A stretch of 64,000 nt of DNA from Roseateles sp. (lineage in GTDB: Bacteria; Pseudomonadota; Gammaproteobacteria; Burkholderiales; Burkholderiaceae_C): positions 1-64,000 of the forward strand of contig JAEUPJ010000101.1 of the NCBI GenBank assembly GCA_016790285.1, read 5' to 3'. Under the pieces are notes generated by a model, which was given only the letters and a program-made list of their open reading frames with translations, was not told the DNA's origin and ran no database searches. Position numbers and translations under genes: made by a program. Positions 15,303 through 49,247 of the stretch are shown piece by piece (within the stretch, counting starts at the first letter, position 1; each line of letters begins with the position of its first letter).

Positions 15303-16271
15303 TCAGGCGCCGAGCTGGATGACCAGCCGCGGTGTGCGCGAGCGCGAGCAGCAGGGCAGGAACTGGTCCATGGCCGCCTGCTCCTGCGCGGTCAGGTACT
15401 GGTCGCGGTGGTCCGGCTCGCCTGCCACGACGCGCGTCAGGCAGGTGCCGCAGACCCCTTGCTCGCACGACGTCAGCAGGGCCACGCCGGCCGCCTGCAG
15501 CGCCTGGGCCGCACTGCAGCCCGCTGGCACGTGGATGACCTGGCCGCTGCCCTGGACTTCGATGTCGAAGGGCTGGTCCTCGGTCACATTGCCGCGCGGC
15601 GTGGCCGCGAAGAGCTCCCGGTGCAGGCGGTCTTCTGCCCAGCCGAGGCGGCGTGCCGCCGCCAGCGCGGCCTCGATGAAGCCTGCTGGCCCGCAGACAT
15701 AGAGTTCGCTGCCTTCGGGCTGTGCGCTGAGCACGGCCTGCATGTCGATCGCGCCGTTCTCGTCGCCCACATGCAGGTGGGTGTGGGCTGTCAGGGGTGT
15801 GTCCGCGAGCGCCGGGAGGAAGGCCATGCGCGCGCGCGTCCGGCCGGCGTAGTGCAGGGCAAACGGCTGGCCGCGTGCCGCCAACTGCCTTGCCATGCTG
15901 AGGATGGGTGTGATGCCGATCCCGCCTGCCAGCAGCAGCTTGTGCGCGGGCGAGGGCCGCAGCGCAAAGTTGTTCTTCGGCGCGCTGGCCGTCAGTACCT
16001 GGCCGACCTGCAGCGCCTCGTGAACCGCGGCCGAGCCGCCGCGCGACGCAGGTTCGCGCAGCACGCCCAGCACGTAGCGGTGGGTCTCGCCCGGTGCATT
16101 GCACAGTGAGTAGGGGCGCACCAGGCCGCCGGGCAGGTGCAGCTCCACATGGGCACCCGCCTCGACGGCCGGCAGCGCACCGCCCGATGCAGGCTCCAGG
16201 GTCAGCTCGACGACATCCTGCGCCGCGGCTCGTTTGGCAGACAGGCGCAACTGCAGCAGCGGCGCACTCAT
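15303..16271 (-). CDS. Vanillate O-demethylase oxidoreductase-like reductase (VanB type)
   Basis: 322 aa phthalate-dioxygenase-reductase type flavoprotein: an FMN-binding domain (RPYSLCNAPGE), an NAD domain (LLLAGGIGITPILSMARQL), and a C-terminal plant-type [2Fe-2S] domain with cysteines in SCEQGVCGTCLTRV and a fourth in FLPCCSR. It passes electrons from NADH to the Rieske oxygenase encoded just upstream, overlapping it by 4 bases (ATGA). Pairing with a VanA-like subunit inside a ferulate/protocatechuate region makes vanillate the likely substrate system. Last gene of the MarR-divergent operon. Confidence 0.88.
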   Translation of the reverse strand: MSAPLLQLRLSAKRAAAQDVVELTLEPASGGALPAVEAGAHVELHLPGGLVRPYSLCNAPGETHRYVLGVLREPASRGGSAAVHEALQVGQVLTASAPKNNFALRPSPAHKLLLAGGIGITPILSMARQLAARGQPFALHYAGRTRARMAFLPALADTPLTAHTHLHVGDENGAIDMQAVLSAQPEGSELYVCGPAGFIEAALAAARRLGWAEDRLHRELFAATPRGNVTEDQPFDIEVQGSGQVIHVPAGCSAAQALQAAGVALLTSCEQGVCGTCLTRVVAGEPDHRDQYLTAQEQAAMDQFLPCCSRSRTPRLVIQLGA

Positions 16272-17302
16272 GCACTCACCTCCGCCGCCAGCAGCCGGTC
16301 GATGACCTTGCGCGACTGGACCCCGCCGCTGTCGATGTTGAGCATCAGCAGTTTGCGGTCCGGGTAGGCCAGCAGGTTGGCCTGCTGGCGTTCCAGCATC
16401 TCCTGGTCTTCGGCAAAGATGCGCCCCTGGCCTTCGCGGATCTGCGCGGTCAGGGTCTCGTCCTGCGGCTTGAACTTGCGCGCCATGCCCCAGAAGTAGT
16501 GGATGGACGTGTCGGTCTCGGGCGTGATGAAGTCCACCACCCAGCTGGCGGCCTTGAACTCGTCGGGCGCCGCGTGCCCGCCTTTGCCCTGAAGCGCCAC
16601 ACCGACCTCGATCATGATGTGGCTGGGCGGCGTGAAATGGCAGATCTGCCAGCGGTCCACCGGCTGGTCGTCGGGCAGGCCGTTCATGCGCAAGGCCATC
16701 TTCCAGAACGGCGGGGCCTCGATGCCGTTCATGTAGCGCTCGGTGATGACGTGGTCGCCCTCGACGCGCGTCTGGCAGGGCACCTCGTCGATTTCCTTCT
16801 GGCCGATGCTGGTCGAGTGGACGTAGGTCTCGTGCGTCAGGTCCATCAGGTTGTCGATCATCAGCCGGTACTCGCAGCCGATGCGGTAGAGCCCGCCACC
16901 GTAGGCAAAGGCCGGGTTGCCGAGCCATTCGAAGCTGGGCAGCAGGGCAAGGTCAGCGCGCGCGGCGTCGCCCGGCCAGACCCACACGAAGCCATGCGCC
17001 TCGTGCACCGGGAAGCTGCGAATGGCAGGGAAGCCGCGCACGCGCTGGCAGGGCATGGACACGGTCCTGCCGTCGCACCCCATCGCCAGCCCGTGGTAGC
17101 CGCAGACCAGCGTGTCGCCTTCAACCCGCCCGAGTGAGAGCGGCGCGCCGCGGTGCGGGCAGAAGTCCTCCACGGCCGCGACCTGGCCGGCCTGGTTTCG
17201 GAACAGGGCCAGCGGTTGATTGCAGATGCGGCGCCCGAGCGGCCGGTCCTGCCTAATCTCGTCGCTGCGAGCAGCCACGTACCAGGTGTTGAGCGGGAAC
17301 AT
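16268..17302 (-). CDS. Rieske oxygenase, VanA-like vanillate O-demethylase
   Basis: 344 aa. The Rieske centre is C48-P-H50 and C67-G-Y-H70. The mononuclear iron site is within DNLMDLTHETYVHSTS, and the C-terminal region (HFTPPSHIMIEVGV, DTSIHYFWGMARKF) is the VanA/aromatic-ring-hydroxylase domain. It would convert vanillate to protocatechuate plus formaldehyde, feeding PobA/LigAB products downstream. The start at 17302 (MFPLNTWYVAA) is the family start, with GGAGACAC upstream; the longer frame to 17356 is rejected. Other methoxy-aromatic substrates are possible. Confidence 0.88.
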   Translation of the reverse strand: MFPLNTWYVAARSDEIRQDRPLGRRICNQPLALFRNQAGQVAAVEDFCPHRGAPLSLGRVEGDTLVCGYHGLAMGCDGRTVSMPCQRVRGFPAIRSFPVHEAHGFVWVWPGDAARADLALLPSFEWLGNPAFAYGGGLYRIGCEYRLMIDNLMDLTHETYVHSTSIGQKEIDEVPCQTRVEGDHVITERYMNGIEAPPFWKMALRMNGLPDDQPVDRWQICHFTPPSHIMIEVGVALQGKGGHAAPDEFKAASWVVDFITPETDTSIHYFWGMARKFKPQDETLTAQIREGQGRIFAEDQEMLERQQANLLAYPDRKLLMLNIDSGGVQSRKVIDRLLAAEVSA

Positions 17303-17330
17303 GTGTGTCTCCTCCATCGCGGTCAAGGGG

Positions 17331-18101
17331 TCAGCGCGGGGCCATGCGCAAGGCACCGTCCAGGCGGATCACCTCGCCATTGAGGTGGCCGTTCGTGACG
17401 ATGTGCAGTGCCAGCGAGGCGAACTCGGCCGGGTCGCCGAGCCGCTTGGGGAAGGGAATGGACTGCGCGAGCGACTGCTGCACCGGCTCCGGCAGTTCCT
17501 TGAGCAGCGGCGTGGCGAAGATGCCCGGCGCGATGGTGCAGACGCGCACGCCCCATTGCGCCAGGTCGCGCGCCAGTGGCAGGGTCATGCCGGCCACGCC
17601 CGCCTTGGAGGCCGCGTAGGCCTCCTGGCCCACCTGGCCGTCGAAGGCGGCGACCGACGCCGTGTTGACGATGACGCCACGCTCGCCGTCTGTGCCGCCT
17701 TCCAGTGCTGCCGCCCGGGCGGCGAAGAGGCGGACCATGTTGTACGTGCCGACGAGGTTGATGCGCAGCGTGCGCTCGAAGTCCTCCAGCGGCGCGGGGC
17801 TGCCGTCACGCTGGATGACGCGCTTGGCGCCGCCCACGCCGGCAATGTTCATGAGGATGCGTGCCGGGCCATGCGCGGCTGCGGCGGCATCCAGCGCGCC
17901 CGCGGCGCAGGCGCCGTCGGCGATGTCGCAGCGCAGCGCCAGGGCGCTCGCGCCCAGTTCGTCGGCCACGCGGCGGGCGGCGGCCTCGTTGATGTCCAGC
18001 AGTGCCACGCGGGCGCCGGCGGCGACGAGCGCGCGGGCCACGGCCTCGCCCAGGCCCGAGCCGGCGCCGGTGACGAGGGCGGCTTGTCCTTGGATGTTCA
18101 T
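17331..18101 (-). CDS. SDR-family 3-hydroxyacyl-CoA dehydrogenase
   Basis: 256 aa classical short-chain dehydrogenase: cofactor motif TGAGSGLG (11-18), acidic Asp36 in LLDIN favouring NAD+, and catalytic Ser149, Tyr162, Lys166. It resembles type II 3-hydroxyacyl-CoA dehydrogenases (HSD17B10/FadB2-like; GPARILMNIAGVGGAKRV, APGIFATPLL). Between a CoA-transferase and a Rieske oxygenase in a unit starting with thiolase, its likely job is oxidising the 3-hydroxyacyl-CoA of a phenylpropanoid side chain to the 3-keto form. Confidence 0.82.
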   Translation of the reverse strand: MNIQGQAALVTGAGSGLGEAVARALVAAGARVALLDINEAAARRVADELGASALALRCDIADGACAAGALDAAAAAHGPARILMNIAGVGGAKRVIQRDGSPAPLEDFERTLRINLVGTYNMVRLFAARAAALEGGTDGERGVIVNTASVAAFDGQVGQEAYAASKAGVAGMTLPLARDLAQWGVRVCTIAPGIFATPLLKELPEPVQQSLAQSIPFPKRLGDPAEFASLALHIVTNGHLNGEVIRLDGALRMAPR

Positions 18102-18132: not shown

Positions 18133-19692
18133 TCACGCCTGGCCCAGGGCTGTGGCCAGGCCGCGCCAGGTGGGTTGGAACAGGCCTGCGTCCATGAGGC
18201 GCAGCTGGCGGATCAGGGGCCGGAAGCCCATGTGTGCGAGCACGTCGCGCTCCAGGTCCACCCCCGGGGCGATCTCGGTCAGCTCCAGCCCTTCCGGCTG
18301 CAGCACGAACACCGCGCGTTCGGTGATGAAGCTGACCTGCTGGCGCCTTTGGGCGGCATCGCGGCCGTTGAAGGTGAGCTGCTCCACCTGTTCGACGAAC
18401 TTGCGCGAGCGCCCCTCCTGGAGGATGGTCAGGCGCCCGTCGCCCACGGCGAGCTCCAGGCCGCCGGCGGTGAAGGTCCCGCAGAACACCAGCCGCGGCG
18501 TGCTGGCCGTGATGTTGATGAAGCCGCCGCAGCCCACGGGCCGGCCATTGAACTTGCTGACGTTGACGTTGCCGGCCGCGTCGGTCTGTGCAAGGCCCAG
18601 GAAGCTGCAGTCCAGCCCGCCGCCGTCGTAGAAGTCGAACTGGGCGGCCTGCTCGATGATGGACTCGGCGTTGTAGGCCGTGCCGAAGTCGCCACCGTAG
18701 GCCGGTATGCCACCGTTGACGCCGCATTCCACGCTCAGGCGCAGCAGGTGGGCAACGCCTTCCTCGGCCGCCACGGCGGGGATGCCTGCCGGGATGCCGA
18801 TGCCGAGATTGGTGATGGCGCCCGGGCGCAGTTCCAGCGCCGCGCGCCGCGCGATCACCTTGCGCTCGTCCAGCGGCAGCGCGGGCAGCGCGCTCAGCGG
18901 CACCCGCACGTCGCCGGACAGCGCCGGGTTGTACTGGGTGGTGATGGTCTGCTTGTGATTGCGCGGCTCGGCGACGACGACGTAGTCCACCAGGAAGCCC
19001 GGCACCTTGACCGACTTGGGATGCAGGCTGCCCGCCTGCACGACCGCTTCGACCTGGGCGATGACGATGCCGCCGCAGGCGCGTGCGGCCTGCGCCACCG
19101 ACAGCTGCTCCAGCAGCAGGCTTTCCTTGTCGAGGCTGAGGTTGCCGTGCTCGTCGGCGTAGGTGGCGCGGATCAACGCCACGTCGACGTGCGGGCAGGG
19201 GTAGTGCAACCACTCCTGGCCGTCCAGTTCAACGAGGCGAACCAGGTCCTCGCTGCACGCCTTGTTGAGCTTGCCGCCCTCGATGCGAGGGTCGACGAAG
19301 GTGCCCAGGCCCACGCGCGTGAGCAGGCCTGGCGAGCGGCTCGCGATGTGCCGCGTGAGGTGGGACAACGAGCCCTGCGGGAAGTTGTAGGCCTGCACCT
19401 CGCCGGCATGCACGCGCGCCATCATCTGCGCGCCGGTCTGGCCGAAGTGGCCGGCCACCACGCGCCGCACCATACCGGGGTGGGCCAGGTGGGCCATGCC
19501 GCCGTCGGCCGCGTTGCCGATGGCGCCGCAGGCCCAGGTCGTCAGCTGGTTGGGGTGGCCGCTGGCCAGGAAGTGGCGCTCCAGGCCTTGCAGCACTTCC
19601 TCGGCGAGGCCCATCATGGCCAGGCCCCCGAGGAAGACGGTCGCGCCATCGCGGATCAGGGGGCCGACGTCGTCGGCGGTGATGACTTTCAT
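18133..19692 (-). CDS. Family I acyl-CoA:carboxylate CoA-transferase
   Basis: 519 aa, a fused alpha-beta transferase of the propionate CoA-transferase/YdiF type. The N-terminal half shows GGLAMMGLAEEVLQGLERHF and GLGTFVDPRIEGGKLN; the C-terminal half shows NLGIGIPAGIPAVA and the catalytic glutamate, Glu322 in SVECGVNGG, which forms the glutamyl-CoA intermediate. It starts 3 bases after the thiolase stop. It could activate a phenylpropanoate by taking CoA from acetyl-CoA, or recover CoA from an aroyl-CoA such as vanilloyl-CoA; the direction is not readable. Confidence 0.85.
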   Translation of the reverse strand: MKVITADDVGPLIRDGATVFLGGLAMMGLAEEVLQGLERHFLASGHPNQLTTWACGAIGNAADGGMAHLAHPGMVRRVVAGHFGQTGAQMMARVHAGEVQAYNFPQGSLSHLTRHIASRSPGLLTRVGLGTFVDPRIEGGKLNKACSEDLVRLVELDGQEWLHYPCPHVDVALIRATYADEHGNLSLDKESLLLEQLSVAQAARACGGIVIAQVEAVVQAGSLHPKSVKVPGFLVDYVVVAEPRNHKQTITTQYNPALSGDVRVPLSALPALPLDERKVIARRAALELRPGAITNLGIGIPAGIPAVAAEEGVAHLLRLSVECGVNGGIPAYGGDFGTAYNAESIIEQAAQFDFYDGGGLDCSFLGLAQTDAAGNVNVSKFNGRPVGCGGFINITASTPRLVFCGTFTAGGLELAVGDGRLTILQEGRSRKFVEQVEQLTFNGRDAAQRRQQVSFITERAVFVLQPEGLELTEIAPGVDLERDVLAHMGFRPLIRQLRLMDAGLFQPTWRGLATALGQA

Positions 19693-19695
19693 GGC

Positions 19696-20946
19696 TCAGG
19701 CCTTGCAGTAGTCGGGGTTCTCGATCAGCAGCGCCATGCCCTGGCCGCCGCCCACACAGGCGCTGACGACGGCGTAGCGCTCGTTGCGGCGCTGGAGCTC
19801 CAGCGCCGCCGTGAGGGTCAGGCGCAGCCCCGTGGCGGCCAGCGGGTGGCCCAGGGCGATCGAGCCGCCGTTGACGTTCAGCCGGTTCTCGTCCAACGCC
19901 AGCGCCTGCGCGCAGGCCAGCACCTGGGCGCCCTGGGCTTCGTTGATCTCGACGAGGGCGATGTCTGCCATCGTCAAGCCGTAAGCCGTCAGCAACTGCC
20001 GGATGGCAGGCACGGGGCCGATGCCCATGATCTCGGGTGGCACCCCGGCGGCTGACGCACCGGCCAGCCGCGCCAGTGGTGCGCGACCGCTCTGGCGCAT
20101 GACCTCGCCGTTGCCGACCACCATGGCCGCCGCGCCATCGACCAGGGCTGCCGAGTTGCCCGCCGTCTGCACGCCGCCTTCGTAGACCGTGCGCAGGCCT
20201 GCCAGCACCGCGGCCGGAGAGGGCTTGGGGTGGGTGTCCTGCGCCAGGGCCTCGACCTTGCGCGGCAGCCGCAGCGCCCGGTCGTGGTAGCCCTCGCGCC
20301 CGAAGCGCTGGGCCGTGACCGGCGCAATCTCGGCCGCCAGCCAGCCCTGGCTCTGGGCGTGAAGCGCGCGGTCGAAGGAGCGGGCGGCGTAGGCGTCGAC
20401 CGCCTCGCGGCGGATGCCGTACTGGCGGGCCAGGTTCTCGGCAGTCTGGATCATCGACACGCGCGCGGCGGGGTCGTCCAGCGCTTCCCACAGGAAATCC
20501 TTGAACTCGACGGGCGCGCCCAGCTTGAAGCCGCTGCGGTGGGTGTAGGCGCAGATGGGGTTGCGGCTCATGGACTCGGTGCCCACGGCCAGCACGGCAT
20601 CGGCATAGCCGAGTGCGATCTGGTCGGCCGCCTGGCGCAGCACCTCGAAGCCGCTGCCGCAGATGCGCTGCACGCCGATGGCGGGTGCGGCGATGTCCAG
20701 GCCGGCATACAGCCCGACATGGCGGGGCAGCACGTAGGCATCGAAATCGGCGTGGGCCATCGAGGCGACGACGCTGGCACCGATGGCGCTGGCAGGCAGG
20801 CCGCTGCGCTCGATGGCGGCGCGGGCGGCATGGATGCCCAGGTCGGTGGGCGAGACGGCGGCCAGCGCCCCGCAGTAGTCGACCCAGGGGGTGCGGGCAC
20901 CGGCCAGGAGCCAGGTGTCGTGCATCGGGCGGGCAAATTCAGGCAT
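19696..20946 (-). CDS. Thiolase (acetyl-CoA acyltransferase)
   Basis: 416 aa. The acyl-accepting Cys96 is in QRICGSGFE, the substrate-loop His is in NGGSIALGHPLAATGLR, and the second catalytic Cys is in VSACVGGGQGMAL. It would thiolyse a 3-ketoacyl-CoA to acetyl-CoA plus a shortened acyl-CoA. First gene of a five-gene operon with CoA-transferase, SDR, VanA-like and VanB-like genes, under the TTAGC-N3-GCTAA operator and opposite the MarR gene. The context suggests beta-ketoacyl-CoAs of ferulate- or dihydroferulate-type compounds. Confidence 0.88.
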   Translation of the reverse strand: MPEFARPMHDTWLLAGARTPWVDYCGALAAVSPTDLGIHAARAAIERSGLPASAIGASVVASMAHADFDAYVLPRHVGLYAGLDIAAPAIGVQRICGSGFEVLRQAADQIALGYADAVLAVGTESMSRNPICAYTHRSGFKLGAPVEFKDFLWEALDDPAARVSMIQTAENLARQYGIRREAVDAYAARSFDRALHAQSQGWLAAEIAPVTAQRFGREGYHDRALRLPRKVEALAQDTHPKPSPAAVLAGLRTVYEGGVQTAGNSAALVDGAAAMVVGNGEVMRQSGRAPLARLAGASAAGVPPEIMGIGPVPAIRQLLTAYGLTMADIALVEINEAQGAQVLACAQALALDENRLNVNGGSIALGHPLAATGLRLTLTAALELQRRNERYAVVSACVGGGQGMALLIENPDYCKA

Positions 20947-20985
20947 GGGAGCGTTGCAGGTGAAATTAGAGAATGTGGCTATGCA

Positions 20986-20998
20986 TTAGCGTGGCTAA
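20986..20998. promoter_or_regulatory. Operator TTAGC-N3-GCTAA between marR and the thiolase operon
   Basis: TTAGCGTGGCTAA is a perfect 5-bp inverted repeat around GTG. Read on the minus strand, the surrounding TACAGTTAGCCACGCTAAT differs in only two places from the site before the crotonase/fcs operon (TATAGTTACCCACGCTAAT). A -10-like TACAGT with a TTGCGC 17 bases upstream on the minus strand overlaps it, the position expected for a repressor. A related site heads the aldehyde dehydrogenase operon. Confidence 0.72.
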
Positions 20999-21105
20999 CT
21001 GTAATAAGGTTGATACTGTCGCGCAAGTCGGATTTCCGACGCGTGTCCGCTGCAGCCGCCGTCCCGCGAGAGGGCTGTTGCGGGCCGCCAGTCCCAGGAG
21101 CCTGA

Positions 21106-21597
21106 ATGCCTCGCACCGCTGTATCCACTTCGCCGCCCACGCGCTCCAAGAGCCGCAAGCCGCGCCCTGACGTGCCCGATGTCTTCGATTTCCAGAGCAA
21201 TGCGCTCGGCTACCAGCTGCGCCTGGCGCAGCTGCGCGCCTTCGACCTGTTCTTCGAGATGCTGGCGCCCCTGGACCTCTCACCGGCGCGCGTCACCGCG
21301 CTGTCGCTGATCGCGATGAGCCCGGGCACCAACCAGGCCGCGCTGGCCAAGGCGCTCAACGTCGCCGGCCCCAGCGCCCTGAAGCTGGTCGACGGCCTGG
21401 AATCGGCGGGCTGGATCCGGCGCATGGAGGTGGAAGGCGACCGTCGGCGCTACTCCTTGCAGCTCACCGAGCAGGGGCAGTCCCGGTTGGAACAGTTGCG
21501 CGAGAAGTTGACCGAGTACGAGGCCCGGCTGACCGCCGGCCTGAGCGAGGCAGAGCGCGTGCAATTGATGGACCTCCTGGGCCGCCTGGCCCGTTGA
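21106..21597 (+). CDS. MarR-family regulator, likely hydroxycinnamate (CoA-ester) responsive repressor
   Basis: 163 aa. Winged-helix MarR fold: recognition-helix region NQAALAKALNVAGPSALKLVDGLESAGWI and wing MEVEGDRRRYSLQLTEQG, with a basic N-terminal extension (RSKSRKPRPD). It is divergent from the thiolase/van operon. MarR proteins such as FerC, FerR and CouR repress ferulate or coumarate genes and are released by the hydroxycinnamoyl-CoA. The shared operator at three promoters in this region supports an equivalent role here, but the ligand is inferred. Confidence 0.85.
   Translation: MPRTAVSTSPPTRSKSRKPRPDVPDVFDFQSNALGYQLRLAQLRAFDLFFEMLAPLDLSPARVTALSLIAMSPGTNQAALAKALNVAGPSALKLVDGLESAGWIRRMEVEGDRRRYSLQLTEQGQSRLEQLREKLTEYEARLTAGLSEAERVQLMDLLGRLAR

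Positions 21598-22605: not shown

Positions 22606-22609
<4 letters not shown>
21617..22609 (-). CDS. Aldo/keto reductase
   Basis: 330 aa (beta/alpha)8 NADP-dependent oxidoreductase of the AKR superfamily (YakC/Tas-like). Catalytic Asp and Tyr are in MTCFDTAALYGFGANERLVG, Lys in ILLCSKGGM, and His in LYYLHRWD; the NADP-phosphate site region ends LAIPGTTHTGHLKDN. Last gene of the protocatechuate operon, overlapping the ligC-like gene by 4 bases. It has no assigned step in the standard 4,5-cleavage pathway; reducing an aromatic aldehyde or a ring-fission aldehyde are possibilities. Confidence 0.88.
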
Positions 22610-24869
<2,260 letters not shown>

Positions 24870-24870
<1 letters not shown>

Positions 24871-25787
24871 CAGGGCTGCTCCTGCGGCCAGTACAGCCGC
24901 ATGGGGTTGTCGACCAGCAGTTTGCGCTGCAGTTCGGCGGTGACCGCGATATGCGGAATGAAATCCACCAGCCCGCCATCGTCGGGCATGTGCCCCTTCA
25001 GGTTGGGGTGGGGCCAGTCGGTGCCCCACAGCACACGGTCAGGGAAGGTCTCCACCACACGCCGGGCAAACGGGACGACGTCGCGGTAGGCACTCTGCTC
25101 GCCGCCCAGCGCCGGTGGGCCGCTCAGGGAGAGCCGCTCGGGGCAGCTGACCTTGCTCCAGACGTTCGGGTGCTCGTGCATGAACTTCAGGAACAGCGAG
25201 AACTCGGGGCCGTCGATGGGCTTGCCGACGTCGGGCCGGCCCATGTGGTCCACCACCACCGTGGTGGGCAGGGCGGTAAAGAAGTCCCACAGCTGCGGCA
25301 GGTCGACCGCCTCGAAATAGATGACCACATGCCAGCCCAGTGGCTGGATGCGGTGGGCGATCTCGAGCAGCTCGTCCTTGGGCGTGAAGTCCACCAGGCG
25401 CTTGACGAAGTTGAAGCGCACGCCGCGAACGCCCGCCTCGTGCAGGGCGTGCAGCTCGGTGTCGGTGATGCTGCGCCGCACGGTGGCCACGCCGCGGGCG
25501 CGGCCCTGGCTGGCCTGGCAGGCATCGACCATCGCGCGGTTGTCGGCGCCGTGGCAGGTGGCCTGCACGATGACATTGCGCGCGAAGCCGAGGTGGTCGC
25601 GCAGGGCGAAGAGCTGGGCCTTGCTGGCATCGCAGGGCGTGTACTTTCGCTCGGGCGCGAAAGGGAACTCGGCGCCGGGGCCGAACACATGGCAGTGGGC
25701 GTCCACGCTGCCGGGCGGCAACTGAAAGCGCGGGCGGGACGGCGCCGGGTGCCAGTCCAGCCAGCCGGGAGTCTTCTCGAACTGCAT
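24870..25787 (-). CDS. ligI: 2-Pyrone-4,6-dicarboxylate hydrolase
   Basis: 305 aa amidohydrolase-superfamily lactonase: metal-side motif VDAHCHVFGP (HxH), substrate arginines in the middle, VVVDHMGRPD, and the C-terminal catalytic Asp in LWGTDWPHPN. It hydrolyses PDC to 4-oxalomesaconate. LigI is unusual in its superfamily in working without a bound metal in the crystal structures known to me. The gene sits between pobA (3 bases away) and ligA. Confidence 0.94.
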
Positions 25788-25790
25788 GGG

Positions 25791-26966
25791 TCAGCCCTCC
25801 AGTGGCAAGCCGGCGTACTGCTCGGCCAGCGCCGCCTGCGCGCGCGGCGAGGACTGCAGATAGGTCAGCTCATGCTCCTGCGCGCGGCGGTCGAACTCGG
25901 TCGACGTGGGGTAGCTGTGCAGCAGGTTGGTCAGGTACCACGACGTGCGCACGCTGCTCCAGACCCGGCGCAGCGCGGTGTCGCTGTAGCCGCGCAGCAG
26001 CGTGTCGCTCCCCTCGCGGTAGTGCGCAGCCAGGGCGCGACCGAGGTAGTGCACGTCCGACACCGCCAGGTTCAGGCCCTTGGCGCCGGTGGGCGGCACG
26101 ATGTGGGCGGCGTCACCCGCCAGGAAGAGCCGGCCATGCGACATGGGCTCGGCCACGAAGCTGCGCAGCGGCGCGATGGACTTCTCGATGGAGGGGCCCT
26201 CCTCGATCTGCGCGGCCAGATCTGCCGGGAAACGGGCCTTGAACTCCGGCCAGAAGCGCTCGTCGGGCCAGTCCTCGACGCGGTCCGTCAGTGGCACCTG
26301 GATGTAGAAGCGGCCGAGGTGGTCGCTGCGCCGCGAGGCGAGCGCGAAGCCACGCGGGTGGTAGGCGTAGGTCACGTCTTCCAGCGGCCGCACCCGAGCC
26401 ATGATGCCCAGCCAGCCGAAGGGGTAGACCTTCTCGTACTCGCGCAGCACACCGGCCGGCATGGACTTGCGGGAGGGGCCGTGGAAGCCGTCGCAGCCGG
26501 CGATGAAGTCGCAGTCCAGTCGCTGCCTTTGGCCGTCCAGCGTGAACTCGACGTGGGGGCTGTCGCTGTCGATGTCGTGCAGGGTCAGCTCGGTCGCACC
26601 ATGCAGCACCGTCTGGCCGCGCGCGTCTGCGGCGGCGAAGAGGTCTTCCTGGATCTGCGTCTGGCCGTAGGTCATGAAGGGCCGGCCGAGCAGCTTGCCC
26701 GCGTCCACGTAGAAGCTGTCGCGCCCCGCCCAGGCAATGCGCATGCCGTCGTGCGGGTGCCCCTCGCGATCCATGCGCTCGGCCAGGCCGGCGGCGCGCA
26801 GCACGTCCACGCTGGTGGCCTCCAGCACGCCGGCGCGGATGCGCGAGAGCACGTACTCGCGCGTCTGGCGCTCCAGCACGACGCTCTGGATGCCCTGCAG
26901 GTGCAGCAGTTGGGACAGGAGCAGCCCCGCGGGGCCGGCGCCGATGATGGCGACCTGGGTTTTCAT
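25791..26966 (-). CDS. pobA: 4-Hydroxybenzoate 3-monooxygenase
   Basis: 391 aa group A flavoprotein monooxygenase. FAD motif IIGAGPAGLLLSQLLH at the N-terminus, DG motif IAGCDGFHG near 160, GD motif FLAGDAAHIVPPTGAKGLNLA near 285; active-site tyrosine region GRFYIQVP matches PobA. It hydroxylates 4-hydroxybenzoate to protocatechuate with NADPH and O2. Embedding pobA inside the ring-cleavage operon rather than with its own regulator means 4-hydroxybenzoate (for example from p-coumarate) and vanillate converge here. Confidence 0.95.
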   Translation of the reverse strand: MKTQVAIIGAGPAGLLLSQLLHLQGIQSVVLERQTREYVLSRIRAGVLEATSVDVLRAAGLAERMDREGHPHDGMRIAWAGRDSFYVDAGKLLGRPFMTYGQTQIQEDLFAAADARGQTVLHGATELTLHDIDSDSPHVEFTLDGQRQRLDCDFIAGCDGFHGPSRKSMPAGVLREYEKVYPFGWLGIMARVRPLEDVTYAYHPRGFALASRRSDHLGRFYIQVPLTDRVEDWPDERFWPEFKARFPADLAAQIEEGPSIEKSIAPLRSFVAEPMSHGRLFLAGDAAHIVPPTGAKGLNLAVSDVHYLGRALAAHYREGSDTLLRGYSDTALRRVWSSVRTSWYLTNLLHSYPTSTEFDRRAQEHELTYLQSSPRAQAALAEQYAGLPLEG

Positions 26967-26994
26967 GGTGTCCTTGTGTGCAGGAGAGGTGCGC

Positions 26995-27978
26995 TCAGTC
27001 CAGGGAGACCTTGGCGCGTTGGATCACGGTGCTGAACTTGGTGGCTTCGCTGGCGATGAACGCCTGGAACTGTTCGCGGCTCGTGGGGAAGAGTTCATAG
27101 CCGTAGGTGGCGTAGCGCTCCTTGAACTCGGGCTCGGCCAGTGCGGCCTCGATGTCGCGGTAGATCTTGTCGGCCACCGCCTTGGGCGTGCTGCGCGGCA
27201 CGGCCAGCGCCGTCCATCCGCTCATCTCATAGCCCGCGAGGCCCGGTGTCTCGGCCACGGTGGGTGTGTCCGGGAAGGCCGCCTGGCGCCTGGGTGCCGT
27301 GATGGCGATGAAGCGCAGCTTGCCGGCACGCTGCATGGGGCCCGCACTGGCGGCCGTGCCCAGCGCCCAACTCAACTCGCCGGTGCCGACGGCCGAGTAC
27401 AGCTGGGACACCTCCTTGAACACCACGTGCTGCATCTCGGTGCCGGTCATCGTCTCCAGCAGACCCGAGCCCAGGTGCACCGGGTTGCCGATGGACCAGG
27501 ACCCGTAGTTCAGCTGCCCGGGGCGCGCTTTCGCATCGGCCACGAGGTCGGCCACCGTCTTGTAGCGGCTTGCGTTGGGCACGGCGACGAAGAAGTAGGC
27601 GCGAAAGAGGGGCGCCAGCACCTCGAAGTCGCGCGCGGGGTCGTAGGGCAGCTTCTTGAACAGCGCCGGGTAGGCGGCCAGGTGGACGTTGTCGAGCTGG
27701 ATCAGGTCATGCCCATCGGTCGCGCCGCGCTTGAAGGCGTCGATGGCGATGAAGCCATTGCCGCCGGGCCGGTTCTCCACGATGACCGGCTTGCCCCAGG
27801 CCTTTTGCAGCTTCTCGGCCAGCAAGCGCAGTGCACCGTCCGGCCCGGCGCCGGCTGGGAAGGGCGTCAGGATGCGCACCGGCCGGGTGGGGAAGTCCTG
27901 CGCGCCCGCGTCAAGCGGCAGCATGCACAGCGCGAGCAGGCAGGTGGCCAGCCGTGCAATGAAACCGACGTCCTTCAT
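26995..27978 (-). CDS. Bug-family (TctC-like) periplasmic solute-binding protein
   Basis: 327 aa. The signal peptide ends around PLDAGAQDFP, followed by the Bug domain (RPVRILTPFPAGAGPDGALRLLAEKLQKAWGKPVIVENRPG). The carboxylate-binding loop is PAGAGPDG. No tctA/tctB pair accompanies it, so it is an orphan within the protocatechuate operon and would need a TctAB encoded elsewhere; tctAB at 475-2500 is one candidate. The ligand is probably an aromatic or pathway carboxylate; adipate- and protocatechuate-like ligands are known for Bug proteins. Confidence 0.88.
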   Translation of the reverse strand: MKDVGFIARLATCLLALCMLPLDAGAQDFPTRPVRILTPFPAGAGPDGALRLLAEKLQKAWGKPVIVENRPGGNGFIAIDAFKRGATDGHDLIQLDNVHLAAYPALFKKLPYDPARDFEVLAPLFRAYFFVAVPNASRYKTVADLVADAKARPGQLNYGSWSIGNPVHLGSGLLETMTGTEMQHVVFKEVSQLYSAVGTGELSWALGTAASAGPMQRAGKLRFIAITAPRRQAAFPDTPTVAETPGLAGYEMSGWTALAVPRSTPKAVADKIYRDIEAALAEPEFKERYATYGYELFPTSREQFQAFIASEATKFSTVIQRAKVSLD

Positions 27979-28012
27979 GCTTGTCTCCTCGCCGCTTGAG
28001 GCGGGCTGTTGG

Positions 28013-28696
28013 TCAATCGACGTAGCGCAAGCCCGCGCGGGCCAGCGGCTCGCGCATCTGGTACATGTCCAGGCCCAGCACGCCCGAGGCCAGCCGCTCG
28101 CGCTTCTCGCCCTCCAGGGCCTCACGCTTGGCGGCGGCATCCAGGGTGCTGGCTGCCAGGGCGCGCGGCACGCAAACGACGCCGTCGTCGTCTGCCACGA
28201 TGACGTCGCCCGGCGTCACCAGCGCGCCGGCGCACACGACCGGCACGTTCACCGAGCCGAGCGTGGCCTTGATCGTGCCCTTGCTGCTGATGGCGCGGCT
28301 CCACACCGGGAAGCTCATCTCCGTCAGCGTGCGCACATCGCGCACGCCCGCATCGATGATGAGCGCGCGGGCGCCGCGGGCCTGGAAGGACGTGGCCAGC
28401 AGGTCGCCGAAGTAGCCATCGGTGCACTCCGCCGTGAGCCCCGCCACGACGATGTCGCCCGGCCGGATCTGCTCGGCCACGACGTGCATCATCCAGTTGT
28501 CCCCCGGGTGCAGCAGCACCGTGACGGCAGTGCCGCTGACCTGCGCGCCGGCATAGATGGGGCGCATGTAGGGCTTGAGCAGGCCCACGCGGCCCATGGC
28601 TTCATGCACCGTGGCGCTGCCGTAACGCGCCAGGCCGTCGGCCACGGCGCTGTCCGCGCGCGTGATGTTGCGGTACACCACACCGAGTTCGTACAT
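28013..28696 (-). CDS. ligK: 4-Hydroxy-4-methyl-2-oxoglutarate/4-carboxy-4-hydroxy-2-oxoadipate aldolase
   Basis: 227 aa, RraA-like class II aldolase fold. The metal/substrate region reads [31 protein letters not shown], containing the G-x-L-(A)-T and Arg-Asp of this family. It cleaves CHA to pyruvate and oxaloacetate, the last step of the 4,5-pathway, and usually also decarboxylates oxaloacetate. It starts 1 base after the ligJ stop, supporting its pathway placement over an RNase E inhibitor (RraA) role. Confidence 0.93.
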
Positions 28697-28697
28697 G

Positions 28698-29723
28698 TCA
28701 CAGCCCCTTGCGCTTGAGGTGAGCGTCGAGCCGGCCGAACACGCGGCGGGCGTTGCCCTCGTAGATCATGTGGCGCTGCTCGGGCGTCAGGTCGGCGGCT
28801 TCGATGTAGCGCTTGGTGTCGTCGTAGTGATGGCCGGTGGTGGGGTCGATCCCCCGCACCGCGCCGATCATTTCGGAGGCGAACAGCACGTTCTTCAGCG
28901 GGATCACCTCCGTCAGCAGGTCGATGCCCGGCTGGTGGTAGACGCAGGTGTCGAAGAAGATGTTGTTGAGCAGGTGCTCGTCCAGCAGCGGCTTCTTGAG
29001 CTCCTGGGCCAGGCCGCGGAAGCGCCCCCAGTGGTAGGGCACGGCACCGCCGCCGTGCGGGATCAGGAACTTCAGCGTCGGGAAGTCCTTGAACAGATCG
29101 CCCGTGAGGCACTGCATGAAGGCCGTGGTGTCGGCGTTCAGGTAATGCGCGCCCGTGGTGTGGAAGCAGGCGTTGCAGCTGGTGCTGACGTGGATCATGG
29201 CCGGGATGTCGTGCGCCACCATCGCTTCATACAGCGGGTACCAGTGCCGGTCGGTGAGCGGCGGGCTCGTCCAGTGGCCGCCGGAAGGGTCGGGGTTGAG
29301 GTTGATGCCGACAAAGCCGTAGTCGCGCACGCAGCGCTCCAGCTCGGGGATGCAGCTGGCCGGGTCCACGCCAGGCGACTGAGGCAGCATGGCCGCGCCG
29401 ATGAAGTGTTCGGGAAAGAGCTGGCTCACGCGCCAGCACAGCTCGTTGCAGATGGCGGCCCAGGTCGAGCTGACTTCGTAGTCGCCGATGTGATGGGCCA
29501 TGAAGCTGGCGCGCGGGCTGAAGATGGTCAGGTCGCTGCCGCGCTCCTGCATCTTCTTGAGCTGGTTGGTCTCGATGGACTCGCGCAGCTCGTCGTCGCT
29601 GATGCGCAGCTCGCTGGCGCGCGGCATGGGCGTGCCGTCCTTGAGGGCGGCGATCTGGCGGTCGCGCCAGGCGCCGAGCGCCGCGGGGGCGGTCGTGTAG
29701 TGTCCGTGGACGTCGATGATCAT
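28698..29723 (-). CDS. ligJ: 4-Oxalomesaconate hydratase
   Basis: 341 aa amidohydrolase-superfamily protein of the LigJ type: metal motif [11 protein letters not shown] (HxH), [40 protein letters not shown], and the C-terminal [17 protein letters not shown]. It adds water to the tautomerised oxalomesaconate to form 4-carboxy-4-hydroxy-2-oxoadipate. The start at 29723 overlaps the stop of the ModA-like gene (4 bases). It is structurally unrelated to GalB-type hydratases that do the same step in pseudomonads. Confidence 0.93.
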
Positions 29724-30397
29724 GTGGGTTCCGTCATGCCGTGGCGGCGTTTGGTGGCAGCCGTCTCGGGGCTGCAGAGGAAATCGAGCAGCGCTTGTGC
29801 GCCGGCCGCCGGCGGCAGGCCCAGGGCTGCGCTGAAGCGTGTGGTGAGGCCCAGTTCTGCAGGCAGGTCGCCCAGCAGCGTGATGCCGGGCTGGCCGAGC
29901 AGCTCGCTGCGCTGTTGCAGGCCGAGGGACACCTCGCCACGGGCCACCAGCGTCGCCACGGGCACGCCGGGCGGCGCCTGGACAAGGCGTGGGCGCAACG
30001 TGTCCATCAGGCCCCAGCGCTCGAACAGCGCCAGCAAGGCCGTGCCGCTGGGGCCGGTGGAGTAGCCGATCTGCGCGGCGGCCAGCACGGCCGCACGCAG
30101 GTCGGTCGCATCGCGCAGGGGCGGCGTCGCGGCACCGGCCGGTACGGCGGCGGCGACCGTCGAGTTGGCGAAGGGGCATACCGGGCCCGTCAGGCCGGCG
30201 CTGCCGAGCGCCTGCAGCGCGTCCTCGGCCAAGAGCACGACGTCGTAACGCTCGCCCGCACGCAGCCGCCGGGCCACGTCCACGCCACCGGCGGCCTGCA
30301 AGGCCACGCCCGGGCCGCCGGCCTGCGTGAACGCCTGGGCCAGCTCGGCCACCAGGCCGCGTGTGGCCATTGAGGAGATTCCAGTCAGTGCCTGCAT
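29720..30397 (-). CDS. Signal-less ModA-like (type 2 periplasmic binding fold) protein
   Basis: 225 aa resembling molybdate/thiosulfate-type binding proteins (GERYDVVLLAEDALQALGSAG, IGYSTGPSGTALLALFERWGL, FLCSPETAATKRRHGM). It starts directly in the domain (MQALTGISSMATRGLVAELA) with no signal peptide or lipobox and no ABC genes nearby, so it is predicted cytoplasmic. First gene of the protocatechuate operon, divergent from the LysR gene. It might buffer or sense a pathway carboxylate; no function is established. Confidence 0.8.
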   Translation of the reverse strand: MQALTGISSMATRGLVAELAQAFTQAGGPGVALQAAGGVDVARRLRAGERYDVVLLAEDALQALGSAGLTGPVCPFANSTVAAAVPAGAATPPLRDATDLRAAVLAAAQIGYSTGPSGTALLALFERWGLMDTLRPRLVQAPPGVPVATLVARGEVSLGLQQRSELLGQPGITLLGDLPAELGLTTRFSAALGLPPAAGAQALLDFLCSPETAATKRRHGMTEPT

Positions 30398-30428
30398 GCA
30401 GCCATTGTGGAAAGACGATATCCATCGA

Positions 30429-30457
30429 CATAGTTCTAGCTCCGACTAGCTGCTATG
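30429..30457. promoter_or_regulatory. Dyad in the lysR/protocatechuate-operon divergent region
   Basis: CATAG-TT-CTAG, six central bases, then CTAG-N3-CTATG form an interrupted inverted repeat of 29 bp. A second short dyad CGAT-ATCC-ATCG sits beside it at about 30416-30427. Such interrupted dyads with a T-N11-A layout are typical LysR-type binding sites, and this 207-bp gap is the only divergent promoter region of the operon. Confidence 0.6.
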
Positions 30458-30604
30458 CGTGAAACGATTGGCTCGCGCTGGATGGCGGGGCAGGCGACGT
30501 ACAGTCCGGCTGGCTTGCAGGCCTCGCAACATGGCACCCCAATTCCTCACCCTCGCCCCATTCACTGCGCCGCGGCAGCTTGCTGGCCGCGTGCGCCACG
30601 TGCC

Positions 30605-31501
30605 ATGAACCTGGCGCAGGTCGAAGCATTCGTGCATGTGGCCGAGCACGGCAGCTTCAGCAAGGCCGCGCTGGTGCTGGGCGTGGCGCAGCCCCTGCTC
30701 AGCCGGCAGGTGCGGGCGCTCGAGGTGGACCTGCGCGAGACGCTGCTGGAGCGGCATGGCCGCGGCGTGCGGCTCACCGAGGCGGGCCGGCGCCTGCTGG
30801 AGCACGGGCAGGACATCCTGCAACTGGTGCAGCAGGCCCGCGAGGACCTCAGCGCCCAGCGTGACGAGCCCACAGGCGCCATCACGCTGGCGGTGCCGCC
30901 CACGCAGGCGCGGCTGCTGACGCTGCCGTTGATCCAGGCCTTCCAGTCGAGCTGGCCGGCTGCGCGACTGGCCATCATGGAGGGCTTTTCGACGACGCTG
31001 ACCGAGTGGCTGCTGACCGGGCGCTGCGACCTGGCGCTGGTCTACAACCCCGAGCCGCTGGCGTCGCTGGAGATCCTGCCGTTGCGGCAGGAGGCCTTGT
31101 GCCTGTACAGCGCGGCGCAACAGGCGCCGGCGGGCCCGCTGACGCTGCAGCGCCTCGGGCAGTTGCCGCTGGTGATGCCGCAGCGCGGGCAGATCTTTCG
31201 CAGCCGGCTCGAGTCCGCGGCGGCGATGGCGGGGGTGCAGCTCGACGTCCGCTGGGAGGTGTCCAGCGTGCCCGCTTTGCTGGACCTGGTGGCGGCCGGT
31301 GTGGGCCACGCGGCGCTGGGCGAGGATGCCCTGCGCAGCTACGAGAGGGCCGACCGGCTGGCGGTCAGCCGATTCAAGGGCGAGGACATCCACTGCACGC
31401 TGTGCCTGGTGACACCGTCCAGCCGCCGGCCCACCCGGCTCCAACAGGGGCTGGCGTCGCTGCTGGTGAAGATGTGCCGCGAGCGCGGCGCGGCCGGTTG
31501 A
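30605..31501 (+). CDS. LysR-type regulator of the protocatechuate 4,5-cleavage operon
   Basis: 298 aa. N-terminal HTH (MNLAQVEAFVHVAEHGSFSK, then PLLSRQVRALEVDLRE) and a C-terminal LysR substrate domain with Nac/CynR-like features (FSTTLTEWLLTGRCDLALVYNPEP). It is divergent from the ModA-like/ligJK/pobA/ligIABC operon, the arrangement of PmdR and LigR type activators. Start 30605 is where LysR proteins begin; an in-frame ATG at 30455 lies inside the dyad and is unlikely. No good ribosome-binding site precedes 30605. Confidence 0.88.
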   Translation: MNLAQVEAFVHVAEHGSFSKAALVLGVAQPLLSRQVRALEVDLRETLLERHGRGVRLTEAGRRLLEHGQDILQLVQQAREDLSAQRDEPTGAITLAVPPTQARLLTLPLIQAFQSSWPAARLAIMEGFSTTLTEWLLTGRCDLALVYNPEPLASLEILPLRQEALCLYSAAQQAPAGPLTLQRLGQLPLVMPQRGQIFRSRLESAAAMAGVQLDVRWEVSSVPALLDLVAAGVGHAALGEDALRSYERADRLAVSRFKGEDIHCTLCLVTPSSRRPTRLQQGLASLLVKMCRERGAAG

Positions 31502-31519: not shown

Positions 31520-33268
31520 TCAGATCTCGCTCACCGGCCTGAACAGCTCGGGCGGCTCGGACCGCCCCAGCCGCTCGCGCAGGCGGTGGTAGGCGGCCTG
31601 GTCCACGATGCCGGCGAAGAGCGGCGACCACAGGAACACGCGCGCGAAGCAGCGCAACCTTGCCAGCGGTTCGAGGGCGGAGGGCTGTTGCAGTTCCTGC
31701 TGGATCGTGTCCAGCGATTCCCGCGCCGAGGCCATGCGCAGGCCGCCGCCTGAGGGTGAGTCCAGCACCAGGCTCTCGGCGGCCTGCTCGCCGCGGGCGG
31801 GCCAGGCGGTGCCGTCGGGCAGGGTGGGGCGCCCGTCGCGCGCAAAGCTCGTCCAGGCGGCGCCCATGGCACGGCACAGCGCCTGCCTGCCCCGCCGGTT
31901 GAAGGGCGTGTTGACCTGGAAGAGATCGAACTCCCCGGCCTCGTCACGAAACACGAAGGCCATCTCCATCGCGTGCGCCGCGCCCAGCAGCAGGTCCGGG
32001 CGGATGAACGGAATGGCCGGCGCCTCGTCCCAATCGAAGCGGTAGCTCCAGACCGCCTCATGGCCGCTGGCCAGCATCGCGTCCGCCGGGCTGTCCACGT
32101 GGTGCGCGCGCCAGGCCCGCGACAGCAGGCCCGACTCCATCAGGTAGGCCGCGCGGTCTTTCAGGATCGGCAGCTTGCCGCCCAGCAGGCGGCAGTGCTC
32201 CGGTTTGCCGGCGAGAAAGGTGCGGTACTCGTCGCGGTTGCTGCCCAGCAGCACTGGCATGCGGTGCCATTGGCCCTGCCTGAACACCTCCTGCAAGGGG
32301 CTCAGCGGCAGCACGACGCCATCGCGGATGGGGCGCGGCGCGAGGTAGATGCCTTCGCTGCCGGGCACGTGCGCGGCCAGCAGCTCGGCGGGGCTGCGCT
32401 CGCGCAGCCAGTCGGCGAGGTCGTGCGGGGGGCTGGGCAGCCCGGCGCGCGCGAGCAGGCGGCGCACGACCTCTTCGCTGCCGCAGCGCTGACATTCCAG
32501 CGGCGAGTCGCCGCCGTGCACGGCCTGCTCCCGGCTGAAGCTCTCGCAGACGGGGCTCTGTGCGATCGCGCGGTGAAAGAGCCCCTGCGCCAGCGGGCTG
32601 GCCAGCAGCAGCAGGACCTGCTGGCCACCAGCCGACTCGCCGAACACCGTGACGCAGCCCGGGTCGCCCCCGAAAGCGGCGATGTGGGTCTGTACCCAGC
32701 GCAGCGCGGCGATCAGGTCCAGCAGTGCGAAGTTGCCGGAGCGGTCCGCGTCGCTCAGCTCTGCGCCCTGCTGCAGCGCCGGATGGCAGAACCAGCCCAG
32801 CACGCCCAGGCGGTAGTTGACGGTGACGACGATGACGCCGTCTTCAGCAGCGAGGTTGCGGGCGACGTCGAAGCTGGCGGCAGTACCCACCGCGTTGCCT
32901 CCGCCGTGGATCCACACCATCACCGGTCGGCCCGCGCCTGCCTTGGCATCGACGGGGGCGAAGATGTTGAGGAAGAGGCAGTCCTCGTCGCCGATGACTT
33001 GGCCGTGCTGGGCCGCCGGGACCGGCGCGAGCCGGCCGGCGATCTGCGGCGCCATGGCGCCGTGCGCGATCGCCTCCAGGCAGCCTTCCCAGCCGGGCGC
33101 GGGTTGCGGGGCGCGCCAGCGCAGCGGGCCGACGGGCGGCGCGGCATAGCGCAGCCCGCGCCAGGCGTGGACGTCGTTGCCGCTGGCTGTGGCTTCGCGG
33201 TTGCCGATGACGGTGCCAGACGGCGTGTCGCGGCGGCTGAACGGGGCGGGCAGGCGGGGCGTGCTCAT
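31520..33268 (-). CDS. Type B carboxylesterase
   Basis: 582 aa alpha/beta hydrolase of the carboxylesterase/cholinesterase family. Oxyanion-hole motif VMVWIHGGGNAVG, nucleophile Ser212 in FGESAGGQQ, early disulphide-region motif EDCLFLNIFAP, and acid region PVLLGSNRDEY. No signal peptide, so it is cytoplasmic. Last gene of the seven-gene operon (4-base overlap with the MMPL gene). Hydrolysis of aromatic esters, for example feruloyl or coniferyl esters brought in by the transport genes, is a plausible role. Confidence 0.87.
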   Translation of the reverse strand: MSTPRLPAPFSRRDTPSGTVIGNREATASGNDVHAWRGLRYAAPPVGPLRWRAPQPAPGWEGCLEAIAHGAMAPQIAGRLAPVPAAQHGQVIGDEDCLFLNIFAPVDAKAGAGRPVMVWIHGGGNAVGTAASFDVARNLAAEDGVIVVTVNYRLGVLGWFCHPALQQGAELSDADRSGNFALLDLIAALRWVQTHIAAFGGDPGCVTVFGESAGGQQVLLLLASPLAQGLFHRAIAQSPVCESFSREQAVHGGDSPLECQRCGSEEVVRRLLARAGLPSPPHDLADWLRERSPAELLAAHVPGSEGIYLAPRPIRDGVVLPLSPLQEVFRQGQWHRMPVLLGSNRDEYRTFLAGKPEHCRLLGGKLPILKDRAAYLMESGLLSRAWRAHHVDSPADAMLASGHEAVWSYRFDWDEAPAIPFIRPDLLLGAAHAMEMAFVFRDEAGEFDLFQVNTPFNRRGRQALCRAMGAAWTSFARDGRPTLPDGTAWPARGEQAAESLVLDSPSGGGLRMASARESLDTIQQELQQPSALEPLARLRCFARVFLWSPLFAGIVDQAAYHRLRERLGRSEPPELFRPVSEI

Positions 33269-35715: not shown

Positions 35716-35737
35716 GGTCGCAATCTCAGGATGAAGT

Positions 35738-38148: not shown

Positions 38149-38171
38149 GGTGAGGGTTTCCGTGTCGGGGG

Positions 38172-40705: not shown

Positions 40706-40743
40706 GGGTTTGTCTCCTGTTGTTGTCTGGGGTGCGGGGGCGT

Positions 40744-42210: not shown

Positions 42211-42252
42211 GTCTGTCTCCTTGTGATCTTGTTTCGGTTGCCAGTACGATAG

Positions 42253-42265
42253 TTAGCTAGGCAAA
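42253..42265. promoter_or_regulatory. Operator TTAGC-N3-GCAAA before the aldehyde dehydrogenase operon
   Basis: TTAGCTAGGCAAA is the TTAGC-N3-GCTAA dyad with one mismatch in the right arm, and its left flank ATAGTTAGC matches the fcs site (TATAGTTA). It lies 43 bases before the aldehyde dehydrogenase ATG and about 90 bases downstream of the start predicted for the sigma-54 promoter. Confidence 0.6.
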
Positions 42266-42365
42266 CGAAAATATAGGCTTAATGTGTGTTCTCTGGGGTG
42301 GCTTCGGGAATCCGTAGAAACGCTGAGCGCCCATGGCGCACCGGCCGGTGCACGCAGCAGCCTGC

Positions 42366-42381
42366 GCAACAGGCGTGCCAA
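42366..42381 (-). promoter_or_regulatory. Sigma-54 (-24/-12) promoter for the aldehyde dehydrogenase/transport operon
   Basis: Minus-strand TTGGCACGCCTGTTGC matches the consensus TGGCACG-N4-TTGC exactly, with GG-N10-GC spacing. Transcription would start near 42354, giving a leader of about 145 bases. The divergent gene encodes a sigma-54 activator, which makes a chance match unlikely. Confidence 0.85.
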
Positions 42382-42572
42382 CCGCCATCGCGCGTGGCGC
42401 GCCGTGCGGGCTCCGATGCGTCCGCTCCCAGGCGCGGGGGCGGCTGACTGGGACTTTCCCGAGGGCGTCCAACCGCGGCGGGCACCCCCGGCACTCATGG
42501 GGCCGGAGGGCCATCGCATCACGCAAATTCGCAAGACTGGCGCAGACTCCAGGCCCGCTCGTTGACGAAATC

Positions 42573-44363
<1,791 letters not shown>

Positions 44364-49223: not shown

Positions 49224-49247
49224 GGTTACCCTTCTTGTGGATCACAA

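Follow-up and report, generated by a model that had tools for sequence, protein, structure and literature searches.

The window, i.e., the whole stretch of DNA that was analysed (64 kb), contains three minus-strand operons, whose limits were taken from gene order and strand, a marR gene divergent from the first of them, and one palindrome at the head of each operon. The features are the following:

15303 to 16268, minus strand: VanB-like reductase of operon 1 (its open frame has Fer2 and NAD-binding domains, and relatives have matching sequences), whose start codon is not fixed, the open frame extending to 16928
16268 to 17356, minus strand: VanA, vanillate O-demethylase oxygenase of operon 1 (VanA_C and Rieske)
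17331 to 18101, minus strand: short-chain dehydrogenase of operon 1
18133 to 19692, minus strand: CoA-transferase of operon 1
19696 to 20946, minus strand: thiolase, first gene of operon 1
20982 to 21002, unstranded: predicted operator 1, TGCATTAGCGTGGCTAACTGT, in the interval separating thiolase from marR (PWM score 17.0, the lowest of the three)
21106 to 21597, plus strand: predicted CouR-like repressor of the MarR family, 163 aa (Pfam MarR; closest solved relative CouR; recognition helix NVAGPSALKLVDGLE)
33265 to 39908, minus strand: DUF1302, DUF1329, YCF48/BNR and MMPL proteins of operon 3 (gene order kept in relatives)
39938 to 40786, minus strand: short-chain dehydrogenase of operon 3
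40744 to 42210, minus strand: aldehyde dehydrogenase, first gene of operon 3
42249 to 42269, unstranded: predicted operator 3, ATAGTTAGCTAGGCAAACGAA, core 42 bp 5' of the aldehyde dehydrogenase ATG (PWM score 24.5)
42333 to 44363, plus strand: XylR/NtrC-type sigma-54 activator (orthologue matches start at residues 19–85)
42365 to 42380, minus strand: sequence resembling a sigma-54 promoter, TGGCACGCCTGTTGCG, located 5' of operator 3 and oriented to the aldehyde dehydrogenase gene (counterpart in 7/7 regions)
44898 to 45677, minus strand: alpha/beta hydrolase of operon 2
45626 to 46558, minus strand: amidohydrolase-family protein of operon 2
46555 to 48420, minus strand: acyl-CoA synthetase of the feruloyl-CoA-synthetase type (fcs), operon 2 (PRK12582 706 bits, under the cut-off of 777)
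48429 to 49223, minus strand: crotonase/enoyl-CoA hydratase, first gene of operon 2 (PRK08150 above cut-off)
49244 to 49264, unstranded: predicted operator 2, ACAATTAGCGTGGGTAACTAT, core 24 bp 5' of the crotonase ATG (PWM score 24.1)

By position, the operators head the crotonase/acyl-CoA synthetase and thiolase operons, which predicts control of hydroxycinnamate CoA genes; the feruloyl label of the synthetase is presumed here from its context. In terms of general pathway knowledge, the mapped regulon would comprise two side-chain routes, one consisting of hydratase/lyase and aldehyde dehydrogenase and the other of thiolase and CoA-transferase, together with O-demethylation, and the DUF1302/DUF1329/YCF48/MMPL block of operon 3 is a probable transport set. 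A cluster of ring-cleavage type (22606–31501), containing a LigB dioxygenase, amidohydrolases, an RraA-like aldolase, TctC and a LysR gene at 30455, is located between the operator-bearing operons. The window scan at up to one mismatch found no copy of the motif at the ring-cleavage-type genes (22606–30431) and, therefore, ring cleavage seems to be controlled separately from the operons with MarR sites.

A pattern scan of the window with TTAGCNNNGCTAA (TTAGC-N3-GCTAA, at most one mismatch) returned three matches in 64 kb, exactly at the positions 20986, 42253 and 49248 listed in the first-pass annotation, with 0, 1 and 1 core mismatches, respectively, and this total agrees with its statement that intergenic DNA of the window holds no further copy. 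In 100 dinucleotide shuffles, the mean number of matches was 0.17 and none of the shuffles reached three, while the other half-site spacings from N0 to N7 gave no window match at one mismatch. All three cores are located 24–42 bp ahead of a start codon; for operator 1 (core 20986–20998), the distance to the ATG is 39 bp on the thiolase side and 107 bp on the marR side. The previously noticed identity of 17 out of 19 bases between sites 1 and 2 is true for 20985–21003 compared with 49247–49265. The common −10 register proposed for these two sites can be seen by eye on the minus strand (TACAG/TTAGCC at site 1 and TATAG/TTACCC at site 2), but a sigma-70 consensus scan passes the crotonase promoter alone (ATGACC-18-TATAGT), with no promoter at the thiolase or aldehyde dehydrogenase heads. 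Operator 2 has one base in common with the −10 hexamer TATAGT.

Across all 107 contigs of the assembly (5.88 Mb), the core occurs at four places at up to one mismatch, three of them inside the window and the fourth (C66:22793) within a long, gene-like open frame. Three of four places thus fall in 1.1% of the genome, for which the binomial chance of at least three of four in the window, calculated post hoc, is 5e-6. At up to two mismatches, the 21-bp form is found in the genome solely at the three window sites, and the 14 further places that appear at three mismatches score at most 6.4, compared with 17.0–24.5 for the operators. Nevertheless, the total of bare cores is not enriched relative to 20 relatives, which hold 1 to 24 core matches per genome whether the MarR is present or absent. 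The core count was therefore dropped as evidence, MarR-less relatives being equally rich in matches, and the weight is carried by clustering and placement. Outside the window, a further candidate on the same contig (L034:13255, contig position ~77255; score 15.2) consists of a TGTGGATAA stretch, which we take to resemble DnaA boxes; it was considered a chance match and not counted.

A search for the MarR in 299 genomes of the family (E 1e-20) gave 12 genomes with a match, namely the own genome, eight orthologues (50–73% identity) and three of 32–37% identity that form a separate group; named records with the MarR are Acidovorax sp. Leaf160, Paracidovorax wautersii and uncultured Acidovorax. 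An order-wide search (E 1e-35) matched 3 of 399 genomes, none beyond those already in the set. When up to two mismatches are allowed, the loci of ten distinct relatives show matches that precede thiolase, crotonase, aldehyde dehydrogenase and marR genes; scattered two-mismatch core matches also occur (e.g., in L024, L025 and L028) and were left out, as they do not head these operons. From 22 upstream regions of ten Comamonadaceae relatives, with the window excluded, palindromic EM learned the palindrome ATCGTTAGCCaGGCTAACGAT de novo, although the choice of the 22 heads was not blind, since they were picked after a first motif map of the relatives, several of which are close kin. The site was placed in 18 of the 22 regions, with a log-likelihood of 208 compared with 41–55 in eight shuffles that were run with fewer starts (40 vs. 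120) and fewer rounds. Applied to the window, the learned model ranks the three operators first (24.5, 24.1 and 17.0), the next match scoring 8.1. Simple counting of 5-mer dyads had been discarded in favour of palindromic EM because GC-rich dyads swamp the signal: CGTTA-N7-TAACG appears in 11 of the 22 regions, and the largest shuffle maximum is likewise 11.

Around these genes, 26 sites score at least 17; a rough ORF criterion places 22 of them between genes and four in coding-like frames. A site directly precedes marR itself in L006, L007, L023, L024 and L025. In L026 and L027, the motif is found ahead of the crotonase–fcs operon, which is followed by marR, and no learned site is present within 300 bp of marR in these two loci or in L029; the crotonase head of L030 contains no learned site either. 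Moreover, the motif heads operons on contigs other than that of marR in G182 (L121, two sites, before crotonase and aldehyde dehydrogenase) and G269 (L123, one site, before crotonase), although these are draft assemblies and, thus, such contigs may still be neighbours of marR. In L060, a plasmid of Variovorax boronicumulans, a MarR of 42% identity adjoins an unrelated gentisate and CoA-type operon, and the interval between this MarR and gtdA contains ATCGTTAGCTTAGCTAACAAT (score 32.0) plus weaker matches (17.6 and 13.9). Two core matches of G088 (C2:25714 and C6:140; L124 and L125) were not counted, as they show no window-protein match and no score of at least 14, nor were AT-rich learned-model matches in L010, L061 and L062 (scores 15–20). 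The fcs of the window's family is absent at E 1e-120 from G088, G182 and G190, though their crotonase operon carries the operator (L023, L121 and L024) and, therefore, a different ligase may serve there.

This fcs occurs in 170 of the 299 family genomes, about 164 of them without the MarR, and the 25 best of these ~164 fcs loci (120 kb) were used as controls. GTTAGC-N3-GCTAAC, at up to two mismatches, is present in 0 of the 25 control loci (best 25 of ~164), compared with 11 of 12 loci that had been selected for the presence of the MarR or of its sites; given this selection, the contrast is illustrative. Conversely, GTTAT-N5-ATAAC occurs at up to one mismatch in 12 of these best 25 of ~164 control loci, vs. 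no exact copy in the 12 MarR-linked loci. In the same controls (25 best of ~164), an exact GTTA-N7-TAAC lies directly 5' of crotonase in eight loci, six of which have GTTAT-N5-ATAAC, and the learned model gives five matches of at least 17, all of AT type. The common crotonase–fcs operon of Comamonadaceae in MarR-less genomes thus often has CouR-clade-like GTTAT-N5-ATAAC dyads 5' of crotonase, and loci with dyads of this kind are L089, L090, L097, L098, L102, L103, L105, L106 and L108–L111.

The MarR protein of the window contains a MarR winged-helix domain (Pfam PF01047, 39.3 bits vs. a cut-off of 24.6), and its predicted model (pLDDT 81) has MarR folds on top in the fold search. Both sequence and fold point to CouR of Rhodopseudomonas palustris (PDB 6c28, 6c2s and 6c9t) as the closest solved relative: phmmer on PDB gives CouR 6c28 at E 4.6e-21, followed by the next entry at 4.2e-11, and DNA-bound CouR 6c2s is Foldseek rank 1 for the predicted model. 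The NCBIfam model of SlyA is not passed (50.9 bits vs. a cut-off of 120), nor is the Saro_0803 model NF053777 (76.1 bits vs. 200), which is still the best NCBIfam match. According to PMC10458429, R. palustris CouR is a repressor of hydroxycinnamate CoA genes. It is alike in that the footprint of its relatives has the dyad frame GTTA-N7-TAAC. However, its identity to the window MarR is 33–36%, its helix reads PNFVAM instead of PSALKL, the inner operator bases are T..A in place of GC..GC, and in the window the site heads three operons, including thiolase and vanAB. Ten genomes with CouR relatives (69–77% identity) have TTTGATAT-N5-ATAAC(A/G)AT upstream in common, a footprint derived here by sequence comparison. 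The operator GTTAT-N5-ATAAC derived from it is not matched by the window and its relatives, which have GTTAGC-N3-GCTAAC with equal spacing and different inner bases. Thus, the window MarR probably belongs to the CouR-type repressors but uses an operator dialect of its own.

Topic searches of open-licence papers brought up no operator with the present sequence. The first-pass annotation did not recognise the site from FerC, FerR or CouR, which holds with respect to CouR of Rhodococcus jostii RHA1 and to the R. palustris-type footprint. However, TTAGC is also the half-site of the SlyA consensus. As described in PMC4737184, RHA1 CouR is a MarR repressor of a beta-oxidative hydroxycinnamate pathway that acts through one operator type at four operons, including a divergent pair; its operator, cATTGA-N5-TCAATg, covers the −35 box, whereas a different sequence lies over the −10/start region here. 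SlyA/RovA regulators resemble the present case in the half-site TTAGC (consensus TTAGCAAGCTAA; PMC5797941) and in a Ser and a basic residue at base-contacting positions of the helix (SlyA S62 and R65; window S90 and K93), but they control other genes, and their TTA-N6-TAA has one base fewer between the halves than the N7 of the operators; in the window, the corresponding N2 core has no match at one mismatch. In Agrobacterium fabrum, the MarR-type HcaR is reported to control the initial part of beta-oxidative ferulate degradation and the GntR-type Atu1419 to be tied to the vanillate part (PMC7797058), whereas vanAB is within an operon with a MarR site in the window. Saro_0803 of Novosphingobium also has its site over a −10 box, but with the operator GCAATA-N6-TATTGC and resveratrol as ligand (PMC10046596).

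The proposal that the divergent MarR is the natural binder is supported by comparison, as the motif appears to follow the MarR to orthologous operons, to other contigs and into the unrelated operon adjoining the 42% identical MarR. The motif, its conservation and its link with the MarR are supported by these data, and the motif is real and conserved and is most probably the operator of the window MarR. It is very likely that the three palindromes are operators through which the CouR-type repressor encoded at 21106–21597 blocks the three operons until a hydroxycinnamoyl-CoA ester releases it. A MarR dimer would sit on ATCGTTAGC-N3-GCTAACGAT over the −10/start region, blocking the thiolase/CoA-transferase/SDR/vanAB, crotonase/acyl-CoA synthetase and aldehyde dehydrogenase/transport operons; upon entry of a hydroxycinnamate, its CoA thioester would be formed and bind the repressor, freeing the promoters. 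We infer the physical binding, the repression and the CoA-ester inducer; a repressor that covers the −10/start region and is released by a hydroxycinnamoyl-CoA is the preferred interpretation, since responses to esters of this kind are described for FerC and for R. palustris CouR (PMC5487221). Autoregulation of marR via site 1 would follow from the same inference and is uncertain, since this site is the weakest, lies 107 bp from the marR start, and has a score (just under 17) in the range also reached by five AT-rich stretches in the 120 kb control loci. For the use of lignin-derived hydroxycinnamates by Comamonadaceae, this arrangement predicts a regulator together with its operator and regulon, and sensors of feruloyl- or coumaroyl-CoA could be built on these operators, perhaps without cross-reaction with those of CouR.

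Operon 3 exhibits an additional layer. The form TGGCAC-N5-(T/C)TGC(G/A) is found between the XylR-type gene and the operon 3 head in 7/7 regions, six at one mismatch and one at two, while in shuffles of each region one mismatch was reached in 1 to 8 of 300; the sigma-54 promoter form is thus supported. The listed frame of the XylR-type gene would overlap the sigma-54 site at 42365–42380, and the true start is probably further in than its first ATG. In L122, the operon 3 head is the DUF1302 gene, with no aldehyde dehydrogenase match there. In four of the seven regions (window, L024, L026 and L121), the operator is downstream of the sigma-54 promoter and ~32–49 bp away from the start codon. In L120 and L122, only the sigma-54 site is present, whereas L029 has a learned-motif match upstream of it. 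From this pattern, the sigma-54/XylR circuit seems to be the older one, on which the MarR operator was superimposed. Thus, MarR is not the sole control of operon 3, and the initial description of a self-contained regulon was too strong, both for this reason and because the ring-cleavage genes carry no copy. The repressor would act at operon 3 below the sigma-54 promoter, serving as a roadblock or else controlling a second promoter, and the adjoining XylR-type activator probably serves the sigma-54 promoter, placing two locks on this operon. In G182 and G190 (L114 and L115), the XylR-type gene has in-frame stops in the aligned stretch and may be decayed or misread.

The position of the XylR-type gene, which adjoins site 3 and sits between two sites in L024, L026 and L121, together with the conserved sigma-54 promoter form of the aldehyde dehydrogenase operon, raises the alternative that the activator encoded at 42333–44363 binds the palindromes as upstream activating sequences. 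We consider this very improbable: its orthologue is absent at E 1e-100 from two of eight MarR-bearing genomes (G088 and G056), both with the motif, whereas L120 and L122 have the orthologue and the transport genes without the motif. Moreover, site 3 is downstream of the sigma-54 promoter, and the thiolase and crotonase heads lack the sigma-54 form (best 3–4 mismatches in 11/11). A somewhat less remote, yet unlikely, option is that a regulator encoded elsewhere, with a history in common with these pathways, binds the sites and the MarR is a bystander, considering that the MarR link is predicted from sequence comparison and that the genome encodes a second, distant MarR (C38:93133, 35% identity). 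Nevertheless, the region upstream of C38:93133 contains no dyad of the operator type (best four mismatches), and the motif accompanies the window-type MarR where gene order has been rearranged and at an unrelated operon, directly preceding marR in five relatives. Finally, the recurrence of the bare core in all 20 relatives could make the three matches appear as chance AT-rich promoter sequence, a reading of negligible probability given the 0/100 shuffles, the clustering of three of the four genomic places and the recovery of the palindrome from other species without the window.

With the MarR retained as the predicted binder, its recognition helix can be set against the operator bases. SlyA reads bases through S62, V64 and R65 (PMC4737184), which align with S90, L92 and K93 of the window MarR; S90 and K93 are invariant in 11 aligned sequences, and CouR has N, and A or S, at the aligned positions. 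The pairing of these residues with the operator bases fits. A broader idea, toward which we are tentative and lean slightly against, is that CouR-type repressors would share a fixed frame, GTT(A/G)-N7-(T/C)AAC, in which a small helix code sets the inner bases and allows regulons without cross-talk, with a SlyA-like half-site and contacts in the present case. The proposed pairs are GPSxxK with GTTAGC-N3-GCTAAC, PNFVx(A/S) with GTTAT-N5-ATAAC and ARLVH with GTTGT-N5-ACAAC, rows of this comparison within each clade not being independent. The code is weakened by L059 (46% identity), with the dyad at two mismatches only (GTATGCCTGGCTAAC), by L131 and L133, which have S and K in the helix and no such dyad (best four mismatches), and by L148, with a CouR-like helix and no dyad. 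Class-wide homologues (L154–L164) have different helices, and the GC-type dyad is found there at 3–5 mismatches only; L160 (helix TNMVG) has GTTATATGTAATAAT. If the code were true, genomes could hold parallel hydroxycinnamate-type regulons without cross-talk. As helix residues and inner bases are naturally paired, the operator specificity of MarR proteins becomes amenable to testing through a two-residue swap.

A second CouR-like group, encoded by genomes of the same family (L150–L153), has the helix ARLVHLL and the upstream dyad GTTGTCGTCAACAAC, perhaps a third dialect. On a plasmid of Variovorax sp. SRS16 (L129:5881–5901), AATGTTAATCAGGTTAACAAT precedes a gene pair with a MarR of 41% identity and the helix RPAALK, and its GTTAA-N5-TTAAC is perhaps yet another dialect.
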